DNA from: an uncultured Alphaproteobacteria bacterium
GTDB lineage: Bacteria > Pseudomonadota > Alphaproteobacteria > Pelagibacterales > Pelagibacteraceae
Assembly (NCBI GenBank): GCA_903869725.1
Contig: CAIQAD010000017.1
Span: 58,033-122,032 of the forward strand
Direction of reading: 5' to 3'
Length of the DNA: 64,000 nt
This document shows positions 6,097 through 37,529 of the stretch, in pieces; position 1 is the stretch's first letter, and the number at the start of each line of letters is the position of its first letter. A program made the position numbers and the translations under genes. The notes under the pieces were generated by a model. That model was not told the DNA's origin, ran no database searches, and worked only from the letters and a program-made list of their open reading frames with translations.

Positions 6097-7455
6097 TTAT
6101 TTATACTTCCAAGTTGTCGTATCGTTTAAATCCTCAATAATTATACCGTTTTTTTCCAGATCTTCTCTTATTTTATCTGCAACTCCAAAATCTTTGGACT
6201 TTCTAGCGGCATTTCTTAATTGAATTAACCTCTCTACCTCAGCTTTGTCTAAATGAGAAACTTTTTTTGAAGCGTAAAACTTTTCTTTGCTTTCGTTAAA
6301 TAAACCTAAGAACTGTAAGGCTGAGTTGAATTTAATTCTCGCGTTTTCATCGCCAGTTTTAACTTTACTAAATAAGTTATGCAAATGAGTTATAAATTGC
6401 GGGGTGTTTAGATCGTCTAGTAAAATATTTAAAAATTCATCATCTAATTCCGCATGTTCGCCAGTGTAATATTCATACCATCCTTCTAAAATTTTTTTAT
6501 TAGTATCTAAAATTTTTAAATTCCAATCTAATGGCTGACGATAATGCGATCCTAAAATTGCAAGTCTAACAATTTGACCATTATAGTTTTGTTTTAAATC
6601 TTGGATGCTAATAAAATTTCCATCTGATTTAGACATTTTTTTCCCATTAACTGTAACATAACCATTGTGAAGCCAATATTTAGCAAAGAAGTTTGTGCTA
6701 TTAGAGCAAACAGATTGTGCAATTTCATTTTCATGATGAGGAAAAATAAGATCGAGTCCACCACAATGAAAATCAAAGGTATTACCAAGATATTTTTCAG
6801 ACATAGCAGAACATTCCAAATGCCATCCTGGCCTACCCTTGCCCCAAGGAGAATCCCACGAAGGTTCATTTACCTTAGACGGCTTCCATAAAACAAAATC
6901 TAAAGGATTTTTTTTAAGCTCAGAGACTTCCACTCTAGCACCAGAAATTAAGTCTTTTGGTTTTTTGTTAGATAATTTTCCGTAATCATTAAATTTGCTA
7001 ACTTCAAAATATACGTTGCCATCTTTTACGTAAGCAAATTTTTTAGCTATTAATTGCTCGATCATTAAAATCATTTCTTTTATATGATCTGTTGCTCTGG
7101 GCTGATAATTTGGTGATAAACAGTTTAAATATTTACAATCACTCAAAAAAACTTCTGTGACTTGCTCTGTTAAATCTTTAATTGAGATCTTCAATTCATT
7201 AGCACGCTCAATAATTTTGTCATCAATATCTGTTATATTTCGAACGTAATTAACAGAATATTTATTAAAAAATTTAATTAAAACTCTGTAAAGAATATCA
7301 AAAACTACAAGCGGTCTAGCATTACCGATGTGCGGAAAATCATAAACAGTTGGTCCGCAAACATACATTCCAATTTTGTTAGAATGAATCGGAACATAAT
7401 CTTCTTTTTTATTATTATAAGTATTGTAAATTTTAAGACTAGTCATTGTCCTCAA
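6097..7455 (-). CDS. cysS: Cysteinyl-tRNA synthetase (start probably at MTSLKIYN, about 7446)
   Basis: [52 protein letters not shown]. Confidence 0.96.
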   Translation of the reverse strand: MRTMTSLKIYNTYNNKKEDYVPIHSNKIGMYVCGPTVYDFPHIGNARPLVVFDILYRVLIKFFNKYSVNYVRNITDIDDKIIERANELKISIKDLTEQVTEVFLSDCKYLNCLSPNYQPRATDHIKEMILMIEQLIAKKFAYVKDGNVYFEVSKFNDYGKLSNKKPKDLISGARVEVSELKKNPLDFVLWKPSKVNEPSWDSPWGKGRPGWHLECSAMSEKYLGNTFDFHCGGLDLIFPHHENEIAQSVCSNSTNFFAKYWLHNGYVTVNGKKMSKSDGNFISIQDLKQNYNGQIVRLAILGSHYRQPLDWNLKILDTNKKILEGWYEYYTGEHAELDDEFLNILLDDLNTPQFITHLHNLFSKVKTGDENARIKFNSALQFLGLFNESKEKFYASKKVSHLDKAEVERLIQLRNAARKSKDFGVADKIREDLEKNGIIIEDLNDTTTWKYK

Positions 7456-7819
7456 ATTTACAAACTGGAATTGAATTCATCTTATGAAGATTTTTTTTTC
7501 TAATCGCTAAATATTTTTTATGATTTTTATCACTAGGATCTACCATAGCTTTTTCAAGCTCGTGATACGACACCGATGTGCGGAAAATCATAAACAGTTG
7601 GTCCGCAAACATACATTCCAATTTTTTTAGAATGAATCGGAACATAATCTTCTTTTTTATTATTATAAGTATTGTAAATTTTAAGACTAGTCATTGTCCT
7701 CAAATTTACAAACTGGAATTGAATTCATTTTATGAAGATTTTTTTTTCTAATCGCTAAATATTTTTTATAATTTTTATCACTTGGATCTACCATAGCCTT
7801 TTCAAGCTCATGATACGAC
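7324..7819. repeat. Tandem direct duplication, 2 x 248 bp (7324-7571 and 7572-7819), covering the 5' end of cysS plus the 3' end of nadE
   Basis: Manual alignment: 'accgatgtgcggaaaatcataaacag...gatacgac' repeats at offset 248 with 6 visible substitutions (about 2.4%). Confidence 0.93.
7439..7645 (-). pseudogene. Chimeric remnant ORF: antisense/out-of-frame cysS head fused to a duplicated NadE C-terminal tail
   Basis: C-terminus [43 protein letters not shown] is nearly identical to the end of the intact NadE at 7687-8430; created by the tandem duplication. Confidence 0.85.
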
Positions 7820-8430
7820 ATACCTAATTGACTTTCATCTGTTCTGCCATCTGCCCATAGTCCATCTGTCGGCGGTGCATCAATAATTTCTTTTAAAAGC
7901 CCAAGCTCTCTTCCCATTTCCCACACTTGTGATTTCATACAATCTGCAATAGGTGAAATATCCACTCCACCATCGCCATATTTTGTATAAAACCCAACTC
8001 CAAAATCTTCAACCTTGTTACCGGTGCCAACCACTATTCCATTATTTGCGCCCGCAACTTGATAAAGAGTTGCCATTCGAAGTCTTGCTCTGCTATTTGC
8101 AAATGCAAGCTCGCTATTAAACTTTGATAATTGTTTTTCAAAAGCTTGGAACACATCATCTAAATTGACAATGATATCATCTACATTTTTAAACTTAGTT
8201 TTTAACCATTGAAGTTGAGCTTTGCTTAAATCATCTAAAGATTTCAGTTGGCGAATGGGCATAGATAAAACTTTTGTATTAATTCCAGTCATAGCTGAAA
8301 GCGTACTGACAACTGCAGAATCTATTCCGCCTGATACCCCAACTACTAAGCAGTCAGGTTTTTTGTCCATAGAACCACAATAATCTTTAATCCACTTTAC
8401 AATGTGTTTGATTCTATCAGCTGGTTTCAT
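7687..8430 (-). CDS. nadE: NH3-dependent NAD+ synthetase
   Basis: 247 aa; [17 protein letters not shown]-loop, [30 protein letters not shown]. Confidence 0.95.
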
Positions 8431-25935: not shown

Positions 25936-26577
25936 CTATTTATTTAATTGCTCATCTTTAATAATCTTTCCCTTATCAAGATGAATAATTCTATTACAAA
26001 ATTTATTTATGAGTTGCTGGTTATGACTTGCAATAACTAAGCTGTTGGCTTGGATCAATTTGGTGTTTAAAATTTCTTCAAACTTTTCCATCACAAACCT
26101 ATCACCAAAGCCAAAAAACTCATCAATCAATGCATGATCAAATTGCATCATTAAATATGCAACAATCTGCACCCGAAGCTGAAAGCCTTGGGATAATTCT
26201 GATAAATCATAAGTTAAATACTGCGTTAGTTGAAATTCTTCTAAATAGTGAAATAGCTGCTTTTCATCAAAGGAAGAGATATTATAAAAATAAAAGATAC
26301 GTTTAATATTATCTATTATCTTTAAATGTGGACTAGTAACGGAGCCGGGTGATGATAAAAAAAAATAGTTTATTTTAACATCTAATAATCCTGAAAAATC
26401 TTTATAAATTCCAGCTAAAACTCTGAGTAAAGTAGTTTTGCCGCTGCCATTGGGCCCAACTAAACCAATCTTATCTCCCTCATAAATATCAAGAGTTATA
26501 TCCTGAAGCACTGGATGATTTTTTAATGAAAGAGAAAGCTGAAGTAAGCTTGCAACTTTATTAGATTTTGGTTGCAC
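25936..26577 (-). CDS. ABC transporter ATP-binding protein, polysaccharide/O-antigen export (Wzt-like, lacking a C-terminal carbohydrate-binding domain)
   Basis: GLVGPNGSGKTTLLRVLAG Walker A, ELSQGFQLRVQIVAYLMM signature, ALIDEFFGFGD Walker B; 213 aa only. Confidence 0.92.
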   Translation of the reverse strand: MQPKSNKVASLLQLSLSLKNHPVLQDITLDIYEGDKIGLVGPNGSGKTTLLRVLAGIYKDFSGLLDVKINYFFLSSPGSVTSPHLKIIDNIKRIFYFYNISSFDEKQLFHYLEEFQLTQYLTYDLSELSQGFQLRVQIVAYLMMQFDHALIDEFFGFGDRFVMEKFEEILNTKLIQANSLVIASHNQQLINKFCNRIIHLDKGKIIKDEQLNK

Positions 26578-27295
26578 AGTTGCTGATTTGTTTATTGGTA
26601 AATAAATTATTAATGATGAGTACTAGGACAATTAAACTAGTCATGATTATGAAGCCTTCTTTGTTAAAAGACCCTTTCATAATAGCATCACGAAATACAT
26701 TTAAGATATGATAAACAGGATTAAATTGAAGTAGATATAATTTATTAGCTGATAATTGTTGTGGATACCAAATTATAGGAGAGAGAAAAAACAAAACAAT
26801 CATCATGGAATTAATAAGTTGAGTAATATCTCTGTAATACAATGATATGATGGATAATAATTTTCCAACTTGATGCACTAGAATAATAAGGGTTAAACTG
26901 CCAAGTAAAAAAGCTAGAATATTAAATTGAATGGTAAAAAATAAAATAAACACACCTAAAATAACTAAATTTAAAAAAAATGTAATGAGTAATCTAAAAT
27001 GTAAAATATGGAGTATTCTATGAGGGTTAATTTTCATATTTAAAATTACATGGTTATTAAATAAGCTATCGCCATAGGAAGTTACCGCTAAGGAAATATA
27101 ATTCCATATCCACACCCCAATAGATAAATAAATAATAAAAGTGCTATCTATTGCCAAGATATCTTTTAAAAAAAAACTTTGAGCAAAAACCAAAATCATA
27201 AAGGATAATGGAATCCACAGATAAGAAATCATGGAATGATGGTAATCAACAATAAGATTTTGTAATGAGATTTTGAATAATAATAATAATTTCAT
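26561..27295 (-). CDS. ABC-2 type permease (Wzm-like)
   Basis: 244 aa, six predicted hydrophobic segments, 'SPIIWYPQQLS...LLQFNPVYHILNVFRDAIMKG' typical of polysaccharide exporters. Confidence 0.9.
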   Translation of the reverse strand: MKLLLLFKISLQNLIVDYHHSMISYLWIPLSFMILVFAQSFFLKDILAIDSTFIIYLSIGVWIWNYISLAVTSYGDSLFNNHVILNMKINPHRILHILHFRLLITFFLNLVILGVFILFFTIQFNILAFLLGSLTLIILVHQVGKLLSIISLYYRDITQLINSMMIVLFFLSPIIWYPQQLSANKLYLLQFNPVYHILNVFRDAIMKGSFNKEGFIIMTSLIVLVLIINNLFTNKQISNCATKI

Positions 27296-28441: not shown

Positions 28442-31400
28442 TTAAATTGACAAAAAATTTTTTTTAAAGTTTTTATTTATTTTAATTTTTTTATTTGACA
28501 CGTATAGCATTTTTTTTTCTAATTCATTAAAACTATTAAAATAATTATCTAATTTTAAAATATCTAAAATTTCAACTTGCCCACCAGCCTTGTAAACATA
28601 AGGCACACAACCATGCATAATAGCTTCAACAATTGTCATTCCAAAATGCTCTGTTAATTCAGGTTTATTTTTTAAATCCTCATTAAAACCTGTAAAATGC
28701 CAATAGATAGAGGCTTCAGAATAAAGTTGTAACAATTTATCTCTCTCTAAATTATAATATAATTCAAAATTTAATTTATTTGATTCTAAATAACTTTTCA
28801 CTTTATTATAATGCTCAACCTCAATAGATCTTTCTTCATTTAAACTGCCAACTAACACAAGAGACCAATCTTGAAATTTTTTGTTTTTAGTTAACTTATG
28901 GAACATTTGAGCCATCTCAAATTGTTTTTTGGAGTGTCCCAAGGGCACCCAGCGGCCAACACTCAAAATAATTTTTTTTTTATTGCAAATCTTTGCCAAA
29001 TTTTTTTTGTCAAAATCTAATTTGGGATATATTAGTTTACTATCAAAATTTTTTCCCCAGTATTTTGTGGCCCAACTTAATGTATACTTTGAGTTAGGAA
29101 CAAATGTGTATGAGTTTAAAAATTCTTGTGTTGCTTTTTTTTGAGGAAAACTAATAAGAAAGAAAGATTTTTTGGCAAAGCTTATCAGATTAGATAAATA
29201 TGTTGAGTTGATAAAGATATCATACTCGCTACTAATATTTTGTAATGTAATATTAACAATTCTCTTTCTTAATCTTAAATTATTGTGATTAAAATATTTT
29301 TTTAAATTGTTAATGTCAAAATCACTACTTGAGATTAAATCTATACAATAATCCGAAAGTTTGAGCTCATATATAAAATCTAGCGCCCTTTTTTCTCCAC
29401 CACCATATGATTTCCAAAATTCATTGTAAATAGCTACTCTTTTAACATTAGGTTTTAAATATGATTTTTTTTCTTTTTTAATTAAATTATTAATATCTAG
29501 TAAAAAATTTTTTTTTTTTTTTGTTACATCTTTAAATATTTTCTTTGATAAGAAATTATTTAGTTTATTTTCTACGTCAGTTTCATTAAATAATAGATGA
29601 TCATAAAAAATTTTATTTCTTGCTACATAATACTGCCAGTGAGTCGAATGCTCAATACTAGTCGCTGAATGCTTGTGGTAAACAACTGCGTTATTTTCAA
29701 ATGCAATCTTTCCTTTTTTAGTTAGTCTATTAGATAACTCAGCGTCTTCATAATAATTTTTAAATTCAGAAATAAATAGTTTATTGTAACCTATGGCATA
29801 ACGATCAATTAATACTGCACAACCACAAATTAATTCAGAAAATATTTTATCTTTATACTGATTATGATCTATATCGCCAAATCCAACATCATATGGATTT
29901 TTATAATTCGCTGATCCTGCATTATTTATAATATATTTATTATCTTTATTAATTGTAAAAGACTTTGTAATAAAAATCTCAAAATTATTTCTATTTTCAA
30001 ATTTATCAAATAGTTCGTCGTTAATTTTAATATTTTTAATTAAATTTTTATTAAAAACCGCTTCTGGTTTAAATTTTAATATAATATTTTCATTTTCAGG
30101 AAGATAAAATATTAATTCATGATCATTAGTCTTAATAATATTTTCAGTTACATCGTGACTAGATTTGATAAAACTTTTTTTATATTCAAGATTATCAATT
30201 AAGCAACCGTAATCTAGATAAACATTTTCATTAAAATTTAATGATAATTTAAAAAATTTTTTAAATAATAATATCTTAGGCGTAACAGCAACAATCTCTT
30301 CATTTTGATTATATTTATTTACTAATCTTTCTAAAAAATCATGCTCTATTACTGTATCATTGTTCAAGAGTAAAATTAAGTTTCCTATAGATTTTTCAAA
30401 ACCTACATTATTAGCTTCTGCAAAATATAAATTTTTATTATTAACAACAATTTTAACTTTTGGATAATTTTTGTTTATAAAATTTACTGACTCATCTATT
30501 GAATTATTATCAACAAATACAATTTCAAATTTTTTATATGTTTGATTATAGATAGAATTTAAAAGACTCTCTAAATGATTTAATCCATTATAATTAACTA
30601 TTATAATTGAAACAAAATGATCATTAATTTTTTTTTTTGGTAATATATTTTTTGCATTTTTGATAAAAGGATCTAAAACTAGCTTGAATTCTCCTCTTAT
30701 CAACCTTCCAAACCATCTGAGTGGTTTTGTAATTTTAAATGAATTACTTTTTAATAAATTTTGATATTTATTGAAATTTTCATAATTTAAACGAGAAATT
30801 CGATCTATCTCTTGATCTTTATTAGTTAAGCTTTGATTAAGAGTATCAATGGCTTTAATTTGTTGTTCGGTTTCTTCCGTTCTCTGGGTTAAAGAGCTGG
30901 ATAGATGATGAATTTCGTTATCTTTTGTAGTTAAGGTATTTTCTAAAGTAAGATTTTTTATTTGATTTTGTTTAAGTTCTTGCTGCTTTTGGTCTAATGA
31001 CTGATTAAGGGTTTCAATAGTTTTTTGTTGTTGTTTTACATTTTTATATAATCCCTTTTTTTTTACTAACTCTCTATGTTGATCTAGTAATAAAGCTGAA
31101 AAATTAGTTTGAATATCAAAAGTATTTAAAAAATGAATAATACTATTTTTATTGTTTGATAAAGTAATAACTCCCAATCCATGCGCATGCGGAGATGTAA
31201 AGTGAGAATAAGATTGTTTTAATTCATTGAAAAATTTGTAAACACCAAAATCATCTTTGAATTCATTAACATCATGAAATAAAATAAGTGCATCTTTTTT
31301 ACACTTGGGTAACCAATTAATAAAATCACTCTTTACTGCGTCATAAGTATGATAGCCATCAATATGTAAAAAATCGATTGAATGATTTTTAAAATCAGCA

Positions 31401-31750
31401 AGTGCACTATTAAAATCTTTTTTGATTAATTCAGAAAAATAGTAATATTTCTTATTTTGTTCTAAAACTTCCTTATAAATTTTTTCATCATAAAAACTTG
31501 CATGTAGATCGCCTTGCCAATGATCTATACCAAAACATTTAGTTTCTAATTTATAATCATGAACGGTTTGGCAGAAAGAAAAGTAAGAAAATCCATTATG
31601 CACACCAAGTTCAACAATTGTTTTAGGTTTACAAGTCTTTATTAAAAAATGAGCTAATTTTTCATGACCTATCCATGCACTAGGACATTGATAACTGCTT
31701 TCAAAATTTAGTGATTTAACAAAATCAATAATTAATTTTTCGTTCAGCAT
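28442..31750 (-). CDS. Multidomain 1102-aa protein: methyltransferase-24-like domain, coiled coil, GT2 glycosyltransferase, GT4 glycosyltransferase
   Basis: TIVELGVHNGFSYFSF...FGIDHWQGD...FLHIDGYHTYDAVKSDF (MTase); about aa 224-333 Q/E/K/L heptads; SIIIVNYNGLNHLESLLNSIYNQTY...LLLNNDTVIE (GT2); ILSVGRWVPLGHSKKQF...EHFGMTIVEAIMHGCVPYVYKAGGQVEIL (GT4). Confidence 0.88.
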   Translation of the reverse strand: MLNEKLIIDFVKSLNFESSYQCPSAWIGHEKLAHFLIKTCKPKTIVELGVHNGFSYFSFCQTVHDYKLETKCFGIDHWQGDLHASFYDEKIYKEVLEQNKKYYYFSELIKKDFNSALADFKNHSIDFLHIDGYHTYDAVKSDFINWLPKCKKDALILFHDVNEFKDDFGVYKFFNELKQSYSHFTSPHAHGLGVITLSNNKNSIIHFLNTFDIQTNFSALLLDQHRELVKKKGLYKNVKQQQKTIETLNQSLDQKQQELKQNQIKNLTLENTLTTKDNEIHHLSSSLTQRTEETEQQIKAIDTLNQSLTNKDQEIDRISRLNYENFNKYQNLLKSNSFKITKPLRWFGRLIRGEFKLVLDPFIKNAKNILPKKKINDHFVSIIIVNYNGLNHLESLLNSIYNQTYKKFEIVFVDNNSIDESVNFINKNYPKVKIVVNNKNLYFAEANNVGFEKSIGNLILLLNNDTVIEHDFLERLVNKYNQNEEIVAVTPKILLFKKFFKLSLNFNENVYLDYGCLIDNLEYKKSFIKSSHDVTENIIKTNDHELIFYLPENENIILKFKPEAVFNKNLIKNIKINDELFDKFENRNNFEIFITKSFTINKDNKYIINNAGSANYKNPYDVGFGDIDHNQYKDKIFSELICGCAVLIDRYAIGYNKLFISEFKNYYEDAELSNRLTKKGKIAFENNAVVYHKHSATSIEHSTHWQYYVARNKIFYDHLLFNETDVENKLNNFLSKKIFKDVTKKKKNFLLDINNLIKKEKKSYLKPNVKRVAIYNEFWKSYGGGEKRALDFIYELKLSDYCIDLISSSDFDINNLKKYFNHNNLRLRKRIVNITLQNISSEYDIFINSTYLSNLISFAKKSFFLISFPQKKATQEFLNSYTFVPNSKYTLSWATKYWGKNFDSKLIYPKLDFDKKNLAKICNKKKIILSVGRWVPLGHSKKQFEMAQMFHKLTKNKKFQDWSLVLVGSLNEERSIEVEHYNKVKSYLESNKLNFELYYNLERDKLLQLYSEASIYWHFTGFNEDLKNKPELTEHFGMTIVEAIMHGCVPYVYKAGGQVEILDILKLDNYFNSFNELEKKMLYVSNKKIKINKNFKKNFLSI

Positions 31751-32505
31751 TAGATTAACTCACCAATATTTAATTCTCTTTTTCGCTGATAGATTTTGAG
31801 AAAGGTGCTGCAATCATCTAGATCTGAAATTTGACCTAAATCATACCAATGATCGGTGGAAGAAAGGTTATGATGAAAACATTGTTTATGTTTTAGGTAA
31901 ATTTTATTTATATCAGTAATTTCGTACTCACCTCGTCTTGAGGGTTTTAATTTTTTGATATGTTTTGTTAGATGCTCATCATAAAAATAAAGGCCTGTTG
32001 CTATAAGATTAGATGTTGGTTTTTTTGGTTTTTCCTCGATGTTAATTATTTGTTTCTGCTTTAAAGTAACTACACCATAATGCTGAGGCTGTCTTACCGT
32101 GGTGCAAACTAACGTGCAGCCTTGTTTGTGAATATTTGATGTTAGGTTTTCAAAATTAGAGATAAATAAATTATCACCTAGAATTAATGTAGTTTTTTTG
32201 TTTTTAATTTGCTTTTTTAATAGAAAAAAGCAATGAGCGATGCCTTTAGGTTTAACTTGAACTTTGTAATGTAATTTAATGCCATATTGCTTGCCACTGC
32301 CAAGTAACTTTTTAAATAAATGAATACTTTCTTTTGTTGAGATTAAATAAATGGTTTTATGGCCTAATCTTATTAAGGTTGATAAAGGATAATAAATCAT
32401 CGGTTTATCGTGTACGGGTAAGAGATGTTTGTTTATGACTTTAGTTAAAGGATAAAGTCTTGTGCTTTTACCGCCTGCCATGATGATGCCTATTCTATCG
32501 TTCAT
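31750..32505 (-). CDS. rmlA: Glucose-1-phosphate thymidylyltransferase
   Basis: GIIMAGGKSTRLYPLTKVINKHLLPVHDKPMIYYPLS, LGDNLF, RGEYEITDIN. Confidence 0.93.
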   Translation of the reverse strand: MNDRIGIIMAGGKSTRLYPLTKVINKHLLPVHDKPMIYYPLSTLIRLGHKTIYLISTKESIHLFKKLLGSGKQYGIKLHYKVQVKPKGIAHCFFLLKKQIKNKKTTLILGDNLFISNFENLTSNIHKQGCTLVCTTVRQPQHYGVVTLKQKQIINIEEKPKKPTSNLIATGLYFYDEHLTKHIKKLKPSRRGEYEITDINKIYLKHKQCFHHNLSSTDHWYDLGQISDLDDCSTFLKIYQRKRELNIGELI

Positions 32506-33340
32506 ATAAATTTTTTTTTAAAACTCCTTTCCAATTTAAAAATTTTATTTTTAAATATTTTTCTAATTTAGAGCTATTAAGTTTAACGCGTTGTGGTCGT
32601 TTGGCTTTTTGCTGAATATTGTCTGTGCTAATAGCTACTAATGGATGAGTAATTTTTTTTTGACTTAAATATTCATTTGTAAAATCAAACCAAGAACATT
32701 TGCCTTTTGGACTTAAATTATAAATTTTAATCTGATTAAATTTTTTACGATCAATTAGTTTTTTTGTAATTTTTGCAATAAAGGTAGACGAAGTTGGAGT
32801 TCCAAACTGATCATTAACCACATGTAATTGTTTTTTCTTATTAATTTGGTTTTGTATTTTGTTTAAAAAACTATGGTCTTTGTTTCCATACACCCAGGAA
32901 ACTCTTAAAATGTAGCCTTTAACTTTTTCTTTTATAATAGCAAGATCGCCTTGAAGTTTTGTTTTTCCATAATAATTAATTGGATTTGGTTTTGAGTCTT
33001 CTTTGTAAGGAAATTTTGATTTTCCTGAAAACACATAATCTGTTGAATAATGAATGAGTGGAATGTTTTTAATTTTTACAATTTCTGATAATAATTTTGG
33101 AAACTTTGCATTTAAAGTTGTTGCTTTGTTTTTTTCAATTTCTGCTTGATCAACTTGCGTATAGGCTGCAGCGTTGATTAAAAGATTATATTGTCTGTTT
33201 AGTAAAAATTTTTTTACTTTATTAAGATTATAATAATTTAACTTATTTCTTGTAATCTTTTCAATTTTATAATTTTTATTTAATACTTTACAAAGTTCTG
33301 ATCCTATTTGACCGTTTGCGCCTAAAATTAAAATTTTCAA
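32495..33340 (-). CDS. rmlD: dTDP-4-dehydrorhamnose reductase
   Basis: ILGANGQIGSELCKVL, STDYVFSGKSKFPYKEDSKPNPINYYGKTKLQGD. Confidence 0.94.
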   Translation of the reverse strand: MKILILGANGQIGSELCKVLNKNYKIEKITRNKLNYYNLNKVKKFLLNRQYNLLINAAAYTQVDQAEIEKNKATTLNAKFPKLLSEIVKIKNIPLIHYSTDYVFSGKSKFPYKEDSKPNPINYYGKTKLQGDLAIIKEKVKGYILRVSWVYGNKDHSFLNKIQNQINKKKQLHVVNDQFGTPTSSTFIAKITKKLIDRKKFNQIKIYNLSPKGKCSWFDFTNEYLSQKKITHPLVAISTDNIQQKAKRPQRVKLNSSKLEKYLKIKFLNWKGVLKKNLYER

Positions 33341-33341
33341 G

Positions 33342-34361
33342 TTAAGCTGATAATTTTAATCCTTGCGTATTAGATAAATACCAATTTATAGTTTGTTCTA
33401 AACCTTGATCTAATTTTGTCTTAGGCTTCCAACCTAATTGCTGCTTTATTTTTAAAGTATTAATATCGTATCTAAAGTCATGGCCTTTTCTATCGGTTAC
33501 AAAAGTAATTAAATTTTTATAAGTTGTTTTTGTTGGCTTAACTTTATCAAGATAATTTAAAATTTTATGTACTAATTCAAGATTTGAAATCTGACAGTTG
33601 CCACCAACGTTATAAACTTCCCCGATTTTACCTTTTTTAATGACTTTCAAAATTGCATTGGAGAAATCTTTTGTATAAATCCAGTCTCTAATATTTAAGC
33701 CTTTGCCGTAAATTGGAATTGGTTTATTAGAAAGTGATGATCGAATAATCGTTGGAATAAGCTTTTCTCTATGCTGATTAGGGCCATAATTATTAGAGCA
33801 ATGTAGCGTTATCACTGGCAATTTATGAGTAATATAAAACGCTCTTACGATATGATCCGATGCTGCCTTTGACGCACTGTAGGGGTTGTTAGGTTTATAA
33901 GGATTTAACTCGGTAAAAGGTTTTTCATTTTTTTTTAAAGAGCCATACACTTCATCGGTTGAAATATGAATAAATAGAAAATTTTTTTGTTGAATAGGTT
34001 TTAAATTTTGAAAAAAATTTAAAGCTGATTTTAAAAGATTATGGGTGCCTATCACATTGGTTTTTAAAAATATTTCACTATTTTCAATTGAATTATCAAC
34101 ATGGGTTTCAGCTGCAAAATGTACAATAACATTAGGATTTGATTTTTTTATAACCTCATCAACTGATATTTGATTACAAATATTTTTTTTAAAAAATCTA
34201 TAATTTTTTGTATTTTGTAAATGATAAACACTTTTTGAACTTGCATACGTTAAATCATCGATATTAAATATTTGATAATTTGTAAATTCTTGTAAATAAT
34301 TTATAAAGTTTGAGCCTATAAAACCAGCTCCACCAGTCACTAATATATTTTTTTTAAGCAA
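33342..34361 (-). CDS. rmlB: dTDP-glucose 4,6-dehydratase
   Basis: NILVTGGAGFIGSNFINYL, HFAAETHVDNSI, STDEVYGSL, YSASKAASDH, RDWIYTKDF. Confidence 0.97.
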   Translation of the reverse strand: MLKKNILVTGGAGFIGSNFINYLQEFTNYQIFNIDDLTYASSKSVYHLQNTKNYRFFKKNICNQISVDEVIKKSNPNVIVHFAAETHVDNSIENSEIFLKTNVIGTHNLLKSALNFFQNLKPIQQKNFLFIHISTDEVYGSLKKNEKPFTELNPYKPNNPYSASKAASDHIVRAFYITHKLPVITLHCSNNYGPNQHREKLIPTIIRSSLSNKPIPIYGKGLNIRDWIYTKDFSNAILKVIKKGKIGEVYNVGGNCQISNLELVHKILNYLDKVKPTKTTYKNLITFVTDRKGHDFRYDINTLKIKQQLGWKPKTKLDQGLEQTINWYLSNTQGLKLSA

Positions 34362-34914
34362 AATATTTTACTGCTTCTATAAAAGATAAATTATGTTGAT
34401 CTTTTTTTGATAAAATTATTTTATCTTTACTTACCGGTAGAGAAATATTTAAGTCCCTATCAAAAATGTTTATTCCAAATTCGTGTTGTTTTGAGTAATA
34501 GTTTGTTACTTTATAAAATACTTCAGTATTATCTTTAATTGTTAAAAACCCGTGCACTAAATTTTTTGGGATAAAAATTTGCTTAAAAGAAGTGTCAGTA
34601 ATTTCAATCACTGCATGCTTTCCATAAGTTTTAGATTCTTTTCGAAGATCAAGCACGATATCTAGAATTGCACCTTTTAAAACTCTAACTAACTTATCTT
34701 GAGCAAAAGGCGGTGTTTGAAAATGCAGTCCTCTAAAGGTGTATTTTTCTTTTGATAAACTTTGATTGTCTTGAACAAATTCTAAATTTTCAAATTCTGT
34801 TATATTTTTTTTATTAAATGATTCAGAAAAGTAACCCCTTTCATCTGCATGTTTTACTGGCTGAACAATTAAAACTCCATCAATTGAAGTTTTTTCAATT
34901 TTTAAATTATGCAC
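34354..34914 (-). CDS. rmlC: dTDP-4-dehydrorhamnose 3,5-epimerase
   Basis: DERGYFSESFN, FRGLHFQTPPFAQDKLVRVLKGAILDIVLDLR, HGFLTI. Confidence 0.96.
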   Translation of the reverse strand: MHNLKIEKTSIDGVLIVQPVKHADERGYFSESFNKKNITEFENLEFVQDNQSLSKEKYTFRGLHFQTPPFAQDKLVRVLKGAILDIVLDLRKESKTYGKHAVIEITDTSFKQIFIPKNLVHGFLTIKDNTEVFYKVTNYYSKQHEFGINIFDRDLNISLPVSKDKIILSKKDQHNLSFIEAVKYFA

Positions 34915-35821
34915 GTCTTAAAAATATAGCGAGCTTTAGAAAGAGATTGCCTTGTGTGGTTTGCCTATAAATCCCAACACGATTAATGTCATTAAGTGAA
35001 AATCTAAATAGATAACGTCTGTTTCTTAAAATTCCGTATTGATAAAACGTTTTAAGTGAGTTTTTTGTACCAATATCAACAATTCTAGAAAGCTCTAAAA
35101 AATGCTTATCAGTCCACGTTTTGTATCGTCCTTTAAGGACATAAAAAATTCTAGTCAACTGATTTATAAAACCAATATTTGATCCATTATGGTTTTTGTT
35201 GTGTTGACGATATAAAACTTTTGGATTTTTGTCATAAAAGACTTTATGTCCTGTGAAAGTTGTAAGAATATAAGTCCACCAATCATGACTTTGAACATCA
35301 ACGTTGCAGTTTTCTTTTAATAAATTGAAAATTGTTTTATTAAACACCATAGTGTTTCCACCTGCAATTGATTGCACAATTGCATTTTGAAATGACGGTG
35401 GAAATGGAAACAAAGGTGAATAGCCATTATAAATTAATTTAGAATCTACAATTTCTGTTCGACCACAATATAAGTCGTGTCCTTGTTTTAAAACATTAAT
35501 GGCATGAATTAATTTATCTTGAAACCAAACATCATCTTGATCTGCAAATGCATAGTATTCGTAATGATTATCTATTTTATTAATTAAATTTAGAAAATTT
35601 TTACAAGGGTTATTAAAATTACACTGAAATAAATTTTTAAAATTTTCAGGATATTTTTCTTTGTAATATTTTATAATATTTAAAGTATTGTCATTTGAAT
35701 TATCATCTTGAATGTAAATATGGACATTAACCTGTTGCTGATTGAGTAAACTGTCCAATTGTTCGCTTAAATATTTTTCACCATTACAGGTAGCTAATAC
35801 TATTGCAACAGTTGGCATCAT
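34907..35821 (-). CDS. GT2-family rhamnosyltransferase-like glycosyltransferase
   Basis: TVAIVLATCNGEKYLSEQLDSLLNQQQVNVHIYIQDDNSNDNT...YYAFADQDDVW, HDWW. Confidence 0.92.
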   Translation of the reverse strand: MMPTVAIVLATCNGEKYLSEQLDSLLNQQQVNVHIYIQDDNSNDNTLNIIKYYKEKYPENFKNLFQCNFNNPCKNFLNLINKIDNHYEYYAFADQDDVWFQDKLIHAINVLKQGHDLYCGRTEIVDSKLIYNGYSPLFPFPPSFQNAIVQSIAGGNTMVFNKTIFNLLKENCNVDVQSHDWWTYILTTFTGHKVFYDKNPKVLYRQHNKNHNGSNIGFINQLTRIFYVLKGRYKTWTDKHFLELSRIVDIGTKNSLKTFYQYGILRNRRYLFRFSLNDINRVGIYRQTTQGNLFLKLAIFLRRA

Positions 35822-35840
35822 AAAATTTTGTGTAGGCTCC

Positions 35841-35874
35841 GCACTTTAGCTTCTCTATATTTAAGCTTTAGTGC
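35841..35874 (-). promoter_or_regulatory. Imperfect hairpin between the NusG-like gene and the first GT gene (candidate pause/ops-like or attenuator element)
   Basis: Minus strand GCACT-AA-AGCTT-(AAATATAGAG loop region)-AAGCT-AA-AGTGC: two 5-bp stems with an AA/AA internal loop; no U-tract follows. Confidence 0.4.
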
Positions 35875-35894
35875 CGATCATTTAAATTTATTTT

Positions 35895-36383
35895 CTACTG
35901 CAGGATACCAACTACACTTAATTTTGGATTATTAATTGTGATTGGAAAATTCCAGCCTTCAATAGAAACTTTTAAAATCTTGTTCTTTTTTTCTAACACC
36001 TCAAACACTAGATTCTTTAATGGACCTTTGAAAAACTTACCTTGCTGATTTAAATATTGATAAAAATAATCAGACTGAATGACGCCTGTATTATCTTCAA
36101 ATTGTTTTAAATTATTTATAAAGTTTTTAATTTCTGTTTGAAAATACAAGGAAGATTGAAGAATATAATTTAAGCCCTTTACATAGCGAATGGACTTTAG
36201 CTTTTCTGCAGTAAAGTCAGGATTATAGATAAAACAATAATTACCAAGTAAATTTTGGTTTTTTCCATTAAAATTGAAGCTGGGTTTATAAAATCTATTA
36301 TTTTTTAACTGATGTTCTAGAGAATTTAATAATAAAGAATATTCTTTTGCTTTAAAAACGCCGATAATCCACATATCGGACAA
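35895..36383 (-). CDS. Specialised NusG-family transcription elongation/antitermination factor (RfaH/UpxY/LoaP-like), 162 aa
   Basis: NGN-like N-terminus MWIIGVFKAKEYSLLLNSL...NLLGNYCFIYNPDFTAEKLKSIRYVKGLNYIL (cf. 'LFPGYLFV...TRGV'), C-terminal KOW-like GKFFKGPLKNLVFEVLEKKNKILKVSIEGWNFPITINNPKLSVV; first gene of the polysaccharide operon. Confidence 0.72.
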   Translation of the reverse strand: MSDMWIIGVFKAKEYSLLLNSLEHQLKNNRFYKPSFNFNGKNQNLLGNYCFIYNPDFTAEKLKSIRYVKGLNYILQSSLYFQTEIKNFINNLKQFEDNTGVIQSDYFYQYLNQQGKFFKGPLKNLVFEVLEKKNKILKVSIEGWNFPITINNPKLSVVGILQ

Positions 36384-36506: not shown

Positions 36507-36562
<56 letters not shown>

Positions 36563-36575
36563 GGTTTAGTCAGCC

Positions 36576-36980
36576 ATGGGTAATGACACTTTAACTACAA
36601 TTAGAGAGCAATTTTTAAAGGACAGTACTTTAAAAAATTTTTCAATTTATGCAATCAGACTTATTGAGGGTTTTGTCGACAACAAACTTTCTATGGTTAA
36701 CTATGTAAGATCTGACAATACAAGCCAAATTATTACCCTCCTTTGTATTTACAATTTTTTATTAAACAAAAGTATGACAATTGATAACATAATAAAAACT
36801 GTACCTCATCGTATTGCATCTCGAAGTCATGCTATTTCAACGCTTAATAAATTATGTAAAAAAGAAATTTTAATCAAACAAATATGTAACAAAGACAAAA
36901 GATCAAAAATAATTCTACCGTCTGTTAAATTATTAGAAGAATATCAGGCGTTTTTTATAGAAAAAATAGCATTAAAATAA
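36576..36980 (+). CDS. Winged-helix (MarR-like) transcriptional regulator, paralog 1
   Basis: YVRSDNTSQIITLLCIYNFLLNKSMTIDNIIKTVPHRIASRSHAISTLNKLCKKEILIKQICNKDKRSKIILPSVKLLEEYQAFF: wHTH pattern with 'DKRSKII' wing. Confidence 0.75.
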   Translation: MGNDTLTTIREQFLKDSTLKNFSIYAIRLIEGFVDNKLSMVNYVRSDNTSQIITLLCIYNFLLNKSMTIDNIIKTVPHRIASRSHAISTLNKLCKKEILIKQICNKDKRSKIILPSVKLLEEYQAFFIEKIALK

Positions 36981-37115: not shown

Positions 37116-37529
37116 ATGAATACTGACCAAATTAAAGATTACAAAAAAAAATATATTGATAATGTAAATTTAAAAAATTTTGCAAGTTATGCTGATAAAA
37201 TTATAAATTCTTACGCAATTAATGAATATAAAAATGTTAATTTTGTAAGATCAGATAACACAAGTCAAGTGATGACCCTGTTCTGTATTTCGAAATTTTT
37301 AAAAAATGAAAATCTAACAATTGAAGCGTTAATAAACATAGTACCACAATCTATGGCATCTAGAAGTCATGCAATAAATGTTGTTAAAAAATTATGTAAA
37401 AAGAATATTTTATTTAAAGAGACGCATAATGAAGATAAAAGATCTAAACTTATTTATCCTTCAAAGAGTATTCTTGAAGAGTACAGTCAATTTTATTTAT
37501 ACAAAGCAAAATCGCTAAACGTCGACTAA
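37116..37529 (+). CDS. Winged-helix (MarR-like) transcriptional regulator, paralog 2
   Basis: Colinear with the previous gene: FVRSDNTSQVMTLFCISKFLKNENLTIEALINIVPQSMASRSHAINVVKKLCKKNILFKETHNEDKRSKLIYPS. Confidence 0.75.
   Translation: MNTDQIKDYKKKYIDNVNLKNFASYADKIINSYAINEYKNVNFVRSDNTSQVMTLFCISKFLKNENLTIEALINIVPQSMASRSHAINVVKKLCKKNILFKETHNEDKRSKLIYPSKSILEEYSQFYLYKAKSLNVD

Follow-up and report, generated by a model that had tools for sequence, protein, structure and literature searches.

A diverged NusG paralog heading a SAR11 polysaccharide operon and an ops-like element between its gene and the operon

The 64,000-nucleotide stretch of Pelagibacteraceae DNA analyzed here (referred to as the window) carries on its minus strand a gene for a diverged specialized NusG paralog, followed by an RNA hairpin and an ops-like element, AAGTGCGGAGC, that precede a long polysaccharide operon. 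We consider it likely, with a probability of roughly 0.75, that the protein is a cis-encoded antiterminator whose loading site is an ops variant specific to SAR11, located between its own gene and the genes it targets; recruitment and antitermination are inferred. RfaH, UpxY, and LoaP are specialized NusG paralogs for polysaccharide operons. The recruitment mode of NusG paralogs encoded in their own operons was stated to be unknown in 2020 (PMC7593976), and no paper tying SAR11 or Pelagibacter to a specialized NusG paralog was found in the open-access literature searched. New here are the variant of ops, the fact that it lies downstream of the antiterminator gene, and how tightly it is linked to that gene.

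The first-pass annotation, made from the sequence alone, had placed a NusG/RfaH-like antiterminator of 162 residues with NGN-like and KOW-like segments at positions 35895-36383, as the first gene of a minus-strand polysaccharide cluster. The open reading frame is present there and counts 162 residues from a TTG codon. Every homolog, however, begins with MW; the true start was therefore taken to be the ATG at 36374, yielding a protein of 159 residues (35898-36374, stop codon 35895-35897). The NGN and KOW segments were both confirmed and aligned with the conserved columns of the family, and the position at the head of the cluster also held. Searched by itself, the window protein matched neither a NusG model of Pfam or NCBIfam nor any PDB sequence, implying that a single-sequence search would miss this paralog. 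Scanning genome contigs with the window protein alone recovered no relatives, and neither did scanning viral contigs with the family alignment. A search of relatives returned homologs with 24-38% identity at E-values of 1e-10 to 4e-23, and the window copy scored 1.6e-48 in the Pelagibacteraceae profile search. On these values, the relationship is far beyond chance.

For the window protein, structure prediction by AF2 was confident in the NGN domain and less certain in the C-terminal domain. For L062, a central family member modeled with 34 sequences, pLDDT was 93.2 over the whole chain, which folded into an NGN domain and a KOW beta-barrel. NusG, RfaH, and Spt5 were the best structural matches in the PDB for both proteins. 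The order of an NGN domain followed by a KOW domain, which marks the NusG/Spt5 superfamily, was thus met. The annotation had named a prediction without this architecture as grounds for refutation, and the Foldseek result did not provide them. Among curated models, the NCBIfam UpxY antiterminator model (NF033644) was matched by 22 of 34 paralogs (best E-value 2.9e-9), not including the window copy; the relatives were not compared with the curated cut-off. The RfaH model was matched weakly by nine of the 34 and the LoaP model weakly by five. The RfaH cut-off of TIGR01955 (144.5 bits) was not reached, the window copy giving no match and the relatives at best an E-value of 4.6e-4. Profile-profile comparison (hhalign) was colinear with NusG and RfaH but weak (E 0.0025 for RfaH and 0.02 for housekeeping NusG), and because of these weak scores we relied on the fold and the NCBIfam evidence instead. 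At the position aligned with the DNA-contacting R73 of RfaH, 31 of 34 paralogs carried R or K, whereas 12 of 14 housekeeping NusG proteins had P or Q; the position of RfaH F130 was occupied by F in 33 of 34 paralogs versus V or I in housekeeping NusG. The window protein retained the invariant residues W2, P31, Y46, F48, G67, and G117-P118 in an intact reading frame.

A specialized paralog should also be distinct from the housekeeping nusG of the same genome and be linked to long polysaccharide or secondary-metabolite operons. A separate housekeeping nusG was located at G000:C17:29051-29365, elsewhere on the contig of the window, so that the second ground for refutation named in the annotation, that of this being the only nusG in the genome, did not apply. 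The phylogeny it had suggested against housekeeping nusG was run and split the two groups with 100/100 support; in the tree, which also included housekeeping NusG and RfaH-type proteins, all SAR11 paralogs fell into a single clade (100/100), within which the window protein was among the most divergent members (branch 1.35). The genomic link was found in the window and in all 20 loci that were read, as the annotation had asked of the orthologs. The window protein is a diverged specialized NusG paralog by fold and ancestry, and its suppression of pausing or termination on the operon is inferred. The annotation was supported in calling it a specialized NusG paralog; an assignment to RfaH proper was not supported.

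In the window, the gene is followed on the same strand by a family 2 glycosyltransferase gene (34907-35821), the first target gene, and then by rmlC, encoding dTDP-4-dehydrorhamnose 3,5-epimerase (34354-34914), an rmlB-like dTDP-glucose dehydratase gene (33342-34361), rmlD (32495-33340), an rmlA-like nucleotidyltransferase gene (31750-32505), and a gene for a methyltransferase/GT2/GT1 fusion protein (28442-31750). An ABC transporter completes the series, with a probable permease (26561-27295, minus strand), recognized by position and hydrophobic sequence without a Pfam match at 1e-5, and a polysaccharide transporter ATPase (25936-26577, minus strand; Pfam ABC_tran).

A profile search of 297 sampled Pelagibacteraceae genomes gave paralog matches in 84. 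Removal of four weak matches left 81 paralog loci in 80 genomes, i.e. about one-quarter of those sampled. Protein identity between paralog loci was mostly 25-57%. The genes 3' of the paralog were dominated by polysaccharide functions in each of the 20 loci read and were co-directional nearly without exception; they included genes for NDP-sugar epimerases and dehydratases, DegT aminotransferases, NeuB, cytidylyltransferases, and others. All 18 relatives scanned had a MarR_EPS regulator gene (TIGR04176) directly 5' of the paralog, in most cases abutting or overlapping it. Upstream of the regulator-paralog pair, TGTTCAATnATTGAACA-type palindromes were present, two in 18 loci and one in nine, and are likely, by inference, to be the MarR_EPS operator. 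When a second loading site was sought as a conserved element 5' of the cassette, only these MarR-type palindromes appeared. In loci of the L056-L085 type (e.g. L059 and L060), the palindrome pairs upstream of MarR_EPS lay near a CTTTACTGTTC motif. In L016 and L107 (G022 contig C11), MarR_EPS and the NusG paralog shared one open frame of 284 residues whose sequence contains N's; a fusion of both regulators is possible.

The ops-like element and the hairpin were absent from the first-pass annotation and provide the strongest evidence for operon-specific recruitment. In the window, AAGTGCGGAGC lies at 35836-35846 on the minus strand; its core GCGGAGC (35836-35842), invariant in relatives, follows the antiterminator stop codon by 52 nt. 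The 11-mer is present as a single copy in the genome of the window. In all 35 loci first compared, the core sat in the gap from the antiterminator stop codon to the first polysaccharide gene, 43-58 nt past the stop, and almost all of these loci carried the complete AAGTGCGGAGC. Across the 297 genomes, the exact 11-mer was located downstream of 70 of the 81 paralog genes, 41-76 nt past the profile match. Of the 11 remaining loci, one was cut by a contig end, and at least two had near variants. Paralog and element occurred together in 71 genomes, the paralog alone in nine, the element alone in 10, and neither in 207 (Fisher p = 6e-47, uncorrected for relatedness), and a reversed-pattern control was present in only four genomes. 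Three unlinked copies that were inspected (L117, L119, and L138) sit among housekeeping genes and were taken as background. A search of 85,488 species detected the extended element in Pelagibacteraceae only, and it was not found in viral contigs. Named GTDB records with a linked element were all Pelagibacteraceae and mostly single-cell genomes; binning errors are therefore not the explanation. A near-constant 11-mer in AT-rich intergenic DNA, despite 25-57% protein identity, points to strong constraint.

RfaH loads at ops, GGCGGTAG(CGTG); the RNA polymerase pause there falls on U11, and the bases contacted by RfaH are G5 and T6 in a DNA hairpin (PMC6775461, PMC11001881). The canonical GGCGGTAG is not present at the target, which has the variant GTGCGGAGC instead. 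When aligned by the pause, ops reads G-10 C G G T A G C G T-1 / G+1, against G-10 C G G A G C N W T-1 / G+1 for the SAR11 consensus. Compared with ops GGCGGTAGCGTG, the SAR11 element has the same start and end, with one loop base lost and one base added behind the stem. The alignment, done by eye, is supported by two loci outside SAR11 that share the layout with a GGTA-type ops. At L191/L222, MarR_EPS, a NusG paralog, and a strong hairpin are followed directly by GGCGGTAGCGTG at +59, and at L171, from an alphaproteobacterium, the same series is followed directly by TGCGGTAGCATGG at +75. MarR_EPS genes outside SAR11 were mostly solitary, and a NusG paralog was detected alongside only L222 among 30 loci, which means that the complete module is not a general feature. 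DNA mini-hairpins are unusually stable when two G-C pairs close a loop of the GNA or GNNA type (PMC4686876); GC-GGA-GC fits the GNA class and GC-GGTA-GC the GNNA class. DNA energy parameters, which contain no bonus for GNA loops, predicted a weak hairpin or none for the core. The window element continues with CTAC, unlike the usual NWTG, so that the T-1/G+1 register is not met in this copy, and the exact position of the predicted pause, itself an inference, is less clear.

The hairpin in the window (35838-35877, minus strand) lies directly before the element and overlaps it. Its inner stem is formed by AGCUU/AAGCU (35863-35867 and 35848-35852), and its outer stem, GCACU/AGUGC, takes in part of the element. 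The leader folds with -13.6 kcal/mol (z -2.83), and none of 200 shuffled sequences folded as well. The position of the hairpin is conserved in relatives: at most loci one can form immediately 5' of the element, with differing arms of at least eight stem sequences, among them TTGTAAAA/TTTTACAA, GACTTT/AAAGTC, TTGACA/TGTCAA, and CTTGA/TCAAG. Folding z-scores averaged -1.5 before the element versus +0.3 downstream (Wilcoxon p = 2e-8, uncorrected for relatedness). RNAalifold found no consensus structure on a MAFFT alignment, probably due to stems mis-aligned in different registers, and per-locus shuffle tests were used in its place.

These observations can be arranged into a scheme in which transcription would start at a promoter upstream of the antiterminator gene, run through that gene, and reach the hairpin and AAGTGCGGAGC(N)WTG 40-60 nt past its stop codon. 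A pause of RNA polymerase at the element is predicted, with the same register as at ops (G-10 C G G ... T-1, G+1); the non-template strand would display a GC-GGA-GC DNA mini-hairpin as a shortened form of the GC-GGTA-GC hairpin of ops. The NGN domain of the paralog may recognize this mini-hairpin, remain on the polymerase, and exclude housekeeping NusG, and the long dTDP-rhamnose/glycosyltransferase/ABC-export operon would thereby be transcribed to its end. The antiterminator gene, in relatives together with the regulator gene, would be transcribed first, the pause-and-load site would precede the costly polysaccharide genes, and full expression of the operon would be limited to times when the antiterminator is present. 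Pausing, binding, NusG exclusion, and antitermination are all inferred, and functional data are not available. The window protein is very divergent and occurs without MarR_EPS and its operator, which counts against this reading, as do the CTAC following its element, the missing RNAalifold consensus, the weak or absent predicted DNA hairpin, the weak profile-profile scores, and the 11 paralog loci without the exact 11-mer.

The putative SAR11 antiterminator shares features with each of the known systems. Like UpxY, the antiterminator of capsular polysaccharide operons in Bacteroides, it is a NusG paralog whose gene stands early in the surface-polysaccharide operon that it presumably serves, and the UpxY model is the best curated one for the SAR11 proteins. 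UpxY reportedly prevents termination within the 5' leader that precedes its gene (PMC7819879), whereas the conserved SAR11 signal lies downstream of the paralog gene, the upstream region offers only the MarR-type palindromes, and the neighbor in SAR11 relatives is MarR_EPS. With RfaH, the SAR11 proteins share the NGN-KOW architecture, the basic residue at the R73 position, and F at the F130 position, and the element of most relatives shares with ops the GCGG core at -10 to -7 and T-1/G+1. However, the loop is GGA rather than GGTA and thus one base shorter, the paralog is encoded beside its target with usually a single site per genome, and the proteins lie far from RfaH in the tree and lack E48. 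The alpha-helical, autoinhibited C-terminal domain through which RfaH switches fold has no counterpart in the AF2 model, in which the SAR11 KOW domain is a beta-barrel, but AF2 cannot exclude a second state. LoaP of Bacillus velezensis and others is likewise a NusG paralog whose long operon has a leader hairpin; the SAR11 case differs in that hairpin loops vary, no UNCG hairpin is conserved, and conservation resides in the linear element that follows the stem. The housekeeping NusG encoded in the same genome (L001) has the same fold and domain order but is a separate gene in a separate clade; it was detected in 81 of the 101 relatives sampled, a set with many incomplete genomes.

An alternative in the manner of LoaP would have the paralog read a nascent RNA hairpin, alone or with the single-stranded GUGCGGAGC, rather than a DNA hairpin on the paused polymerase. 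In its favor, most loci have a hairpin 5' of the element, LoaP binds a leader hairpin (PMC12691694), and the LoaP model is weakly matched by a few members. We regard it as possible but unlikely, because it is the sequence following the hairpin that is conserved, stem and loop vary freely without a kept UNCG loop, the core corresponds to ops, a signal read as non-template DNA, and an ops of the GGTA type occupies the equivalent place in L171 and L191. Even less credible is a decaying or repurposed NusG-fold protein that has lost RNA polymerase binding. The long branch and the lack of a NusG model match for the window protein alone would fit such a fate, but the frame is intact, the invariant residues are kept, and the element and hairpin of the window are intact as well.

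The element itself might be a translation signal resembling a Shine-Dalgarno sequence, or an attenuator independent of the paralog, given the GGAG within it and the hairpin before it. The core, however, lies anywhere from about 8 to 156 nt ahead of the next start codon across loci, so that the element is not a ribosome-binding site, and the Shine-Dalgarno reading was rejected on this basis. In addition, 11 bases are conserved rather than four or five, and the element is linked to the paralog gene, leaving this explanation with very little support. It is likewise highly improbable that the element is a recombination or cassette-exchange site separating a conserved regulator cassette from hypervariable polysaccharide genes. 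It does lie exactly between the conserved and variable segments, and three cassettes adjoin a large-subunit rRNA gene, but there is usually one copy per genome and none at the far border, strand and spacing are constant everywhere, the element matches ops, and a hairpin precedes it.

Beyond the preferred reading of a cis-encoded antiterminator loading at an ops variant, a bolder one can be formulated, for and against which we see the evidence as balanced. The SAR11 proteins would constitute an operon-encoded antiterminator class of their own with a distinct loading code, in which an RNA hairpin is followed by a GC-GGA-GC (GNA-loop) DNA mini-hairpin serving as pause element between antiterminator gene and target, derived from the MarR_EPS / NusG-SP / hairpin / GGTA-ops module of a few other proteobacteria and recognized only by the cognate paralog. 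The near-invariant, gene-linked candidate site in dozens of genomes can be interpreted against ops and makes the recruitment question directly testable. It is inferred that some of the most streamlined free-living cells retain an apparent dedicated elongation control for surface polysaccharides. Surface polysaccharides are thought to be a main target of phage selection.

The hairpin and AAGTGCGGAGC 3' of the paralog gene, as found in the cassettes of relatives, are both present in the window (35836-35877). The MarR_EPS gene directly upstream is not; MarR_EPS is absent from the genome and genus of the window, and no TGTTCAATnATTGAACA-type palindrome was found upstream of the window antiterminator. 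Where relatives have the co-directional MarR_EPS, the window has a divergent MarR-like winged-helix gene (36576-36980, plus strand), followed by a second MarR-like paralog that is 47% identical to it (37116-37529, plus strand). The pair matched MarR, SarA-type, and SigI models weakly and no family above cut-off. A third relative of this tandem pair is located at G000:C46.

The promoter region that separates the antiterminator from the divergent MarR-like gene contains a perfect (AG/CT)25 tract (36508-36557). It is the only (CT)8 or longer run in the genome, and a (CT)11 run occurs in just two of the 297 Pelagibacteraceae genomes. The tract might be a length-variable promoter switch or a feature of the assembly. 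Another (CT)n run in the genus, at L086 (G006 contig C96), adjoins thyX and not an antiterminator. At L096, L105, and L111, the regulator-antiterminator cassette directly follows the large-subunit rRNA gene, possibly reflecting a preferred site for surface-polysaccharide islands. A tandem repeat finder also detected two 248-bp tandem copies, 97% identical, at 7324-7820 of the window.
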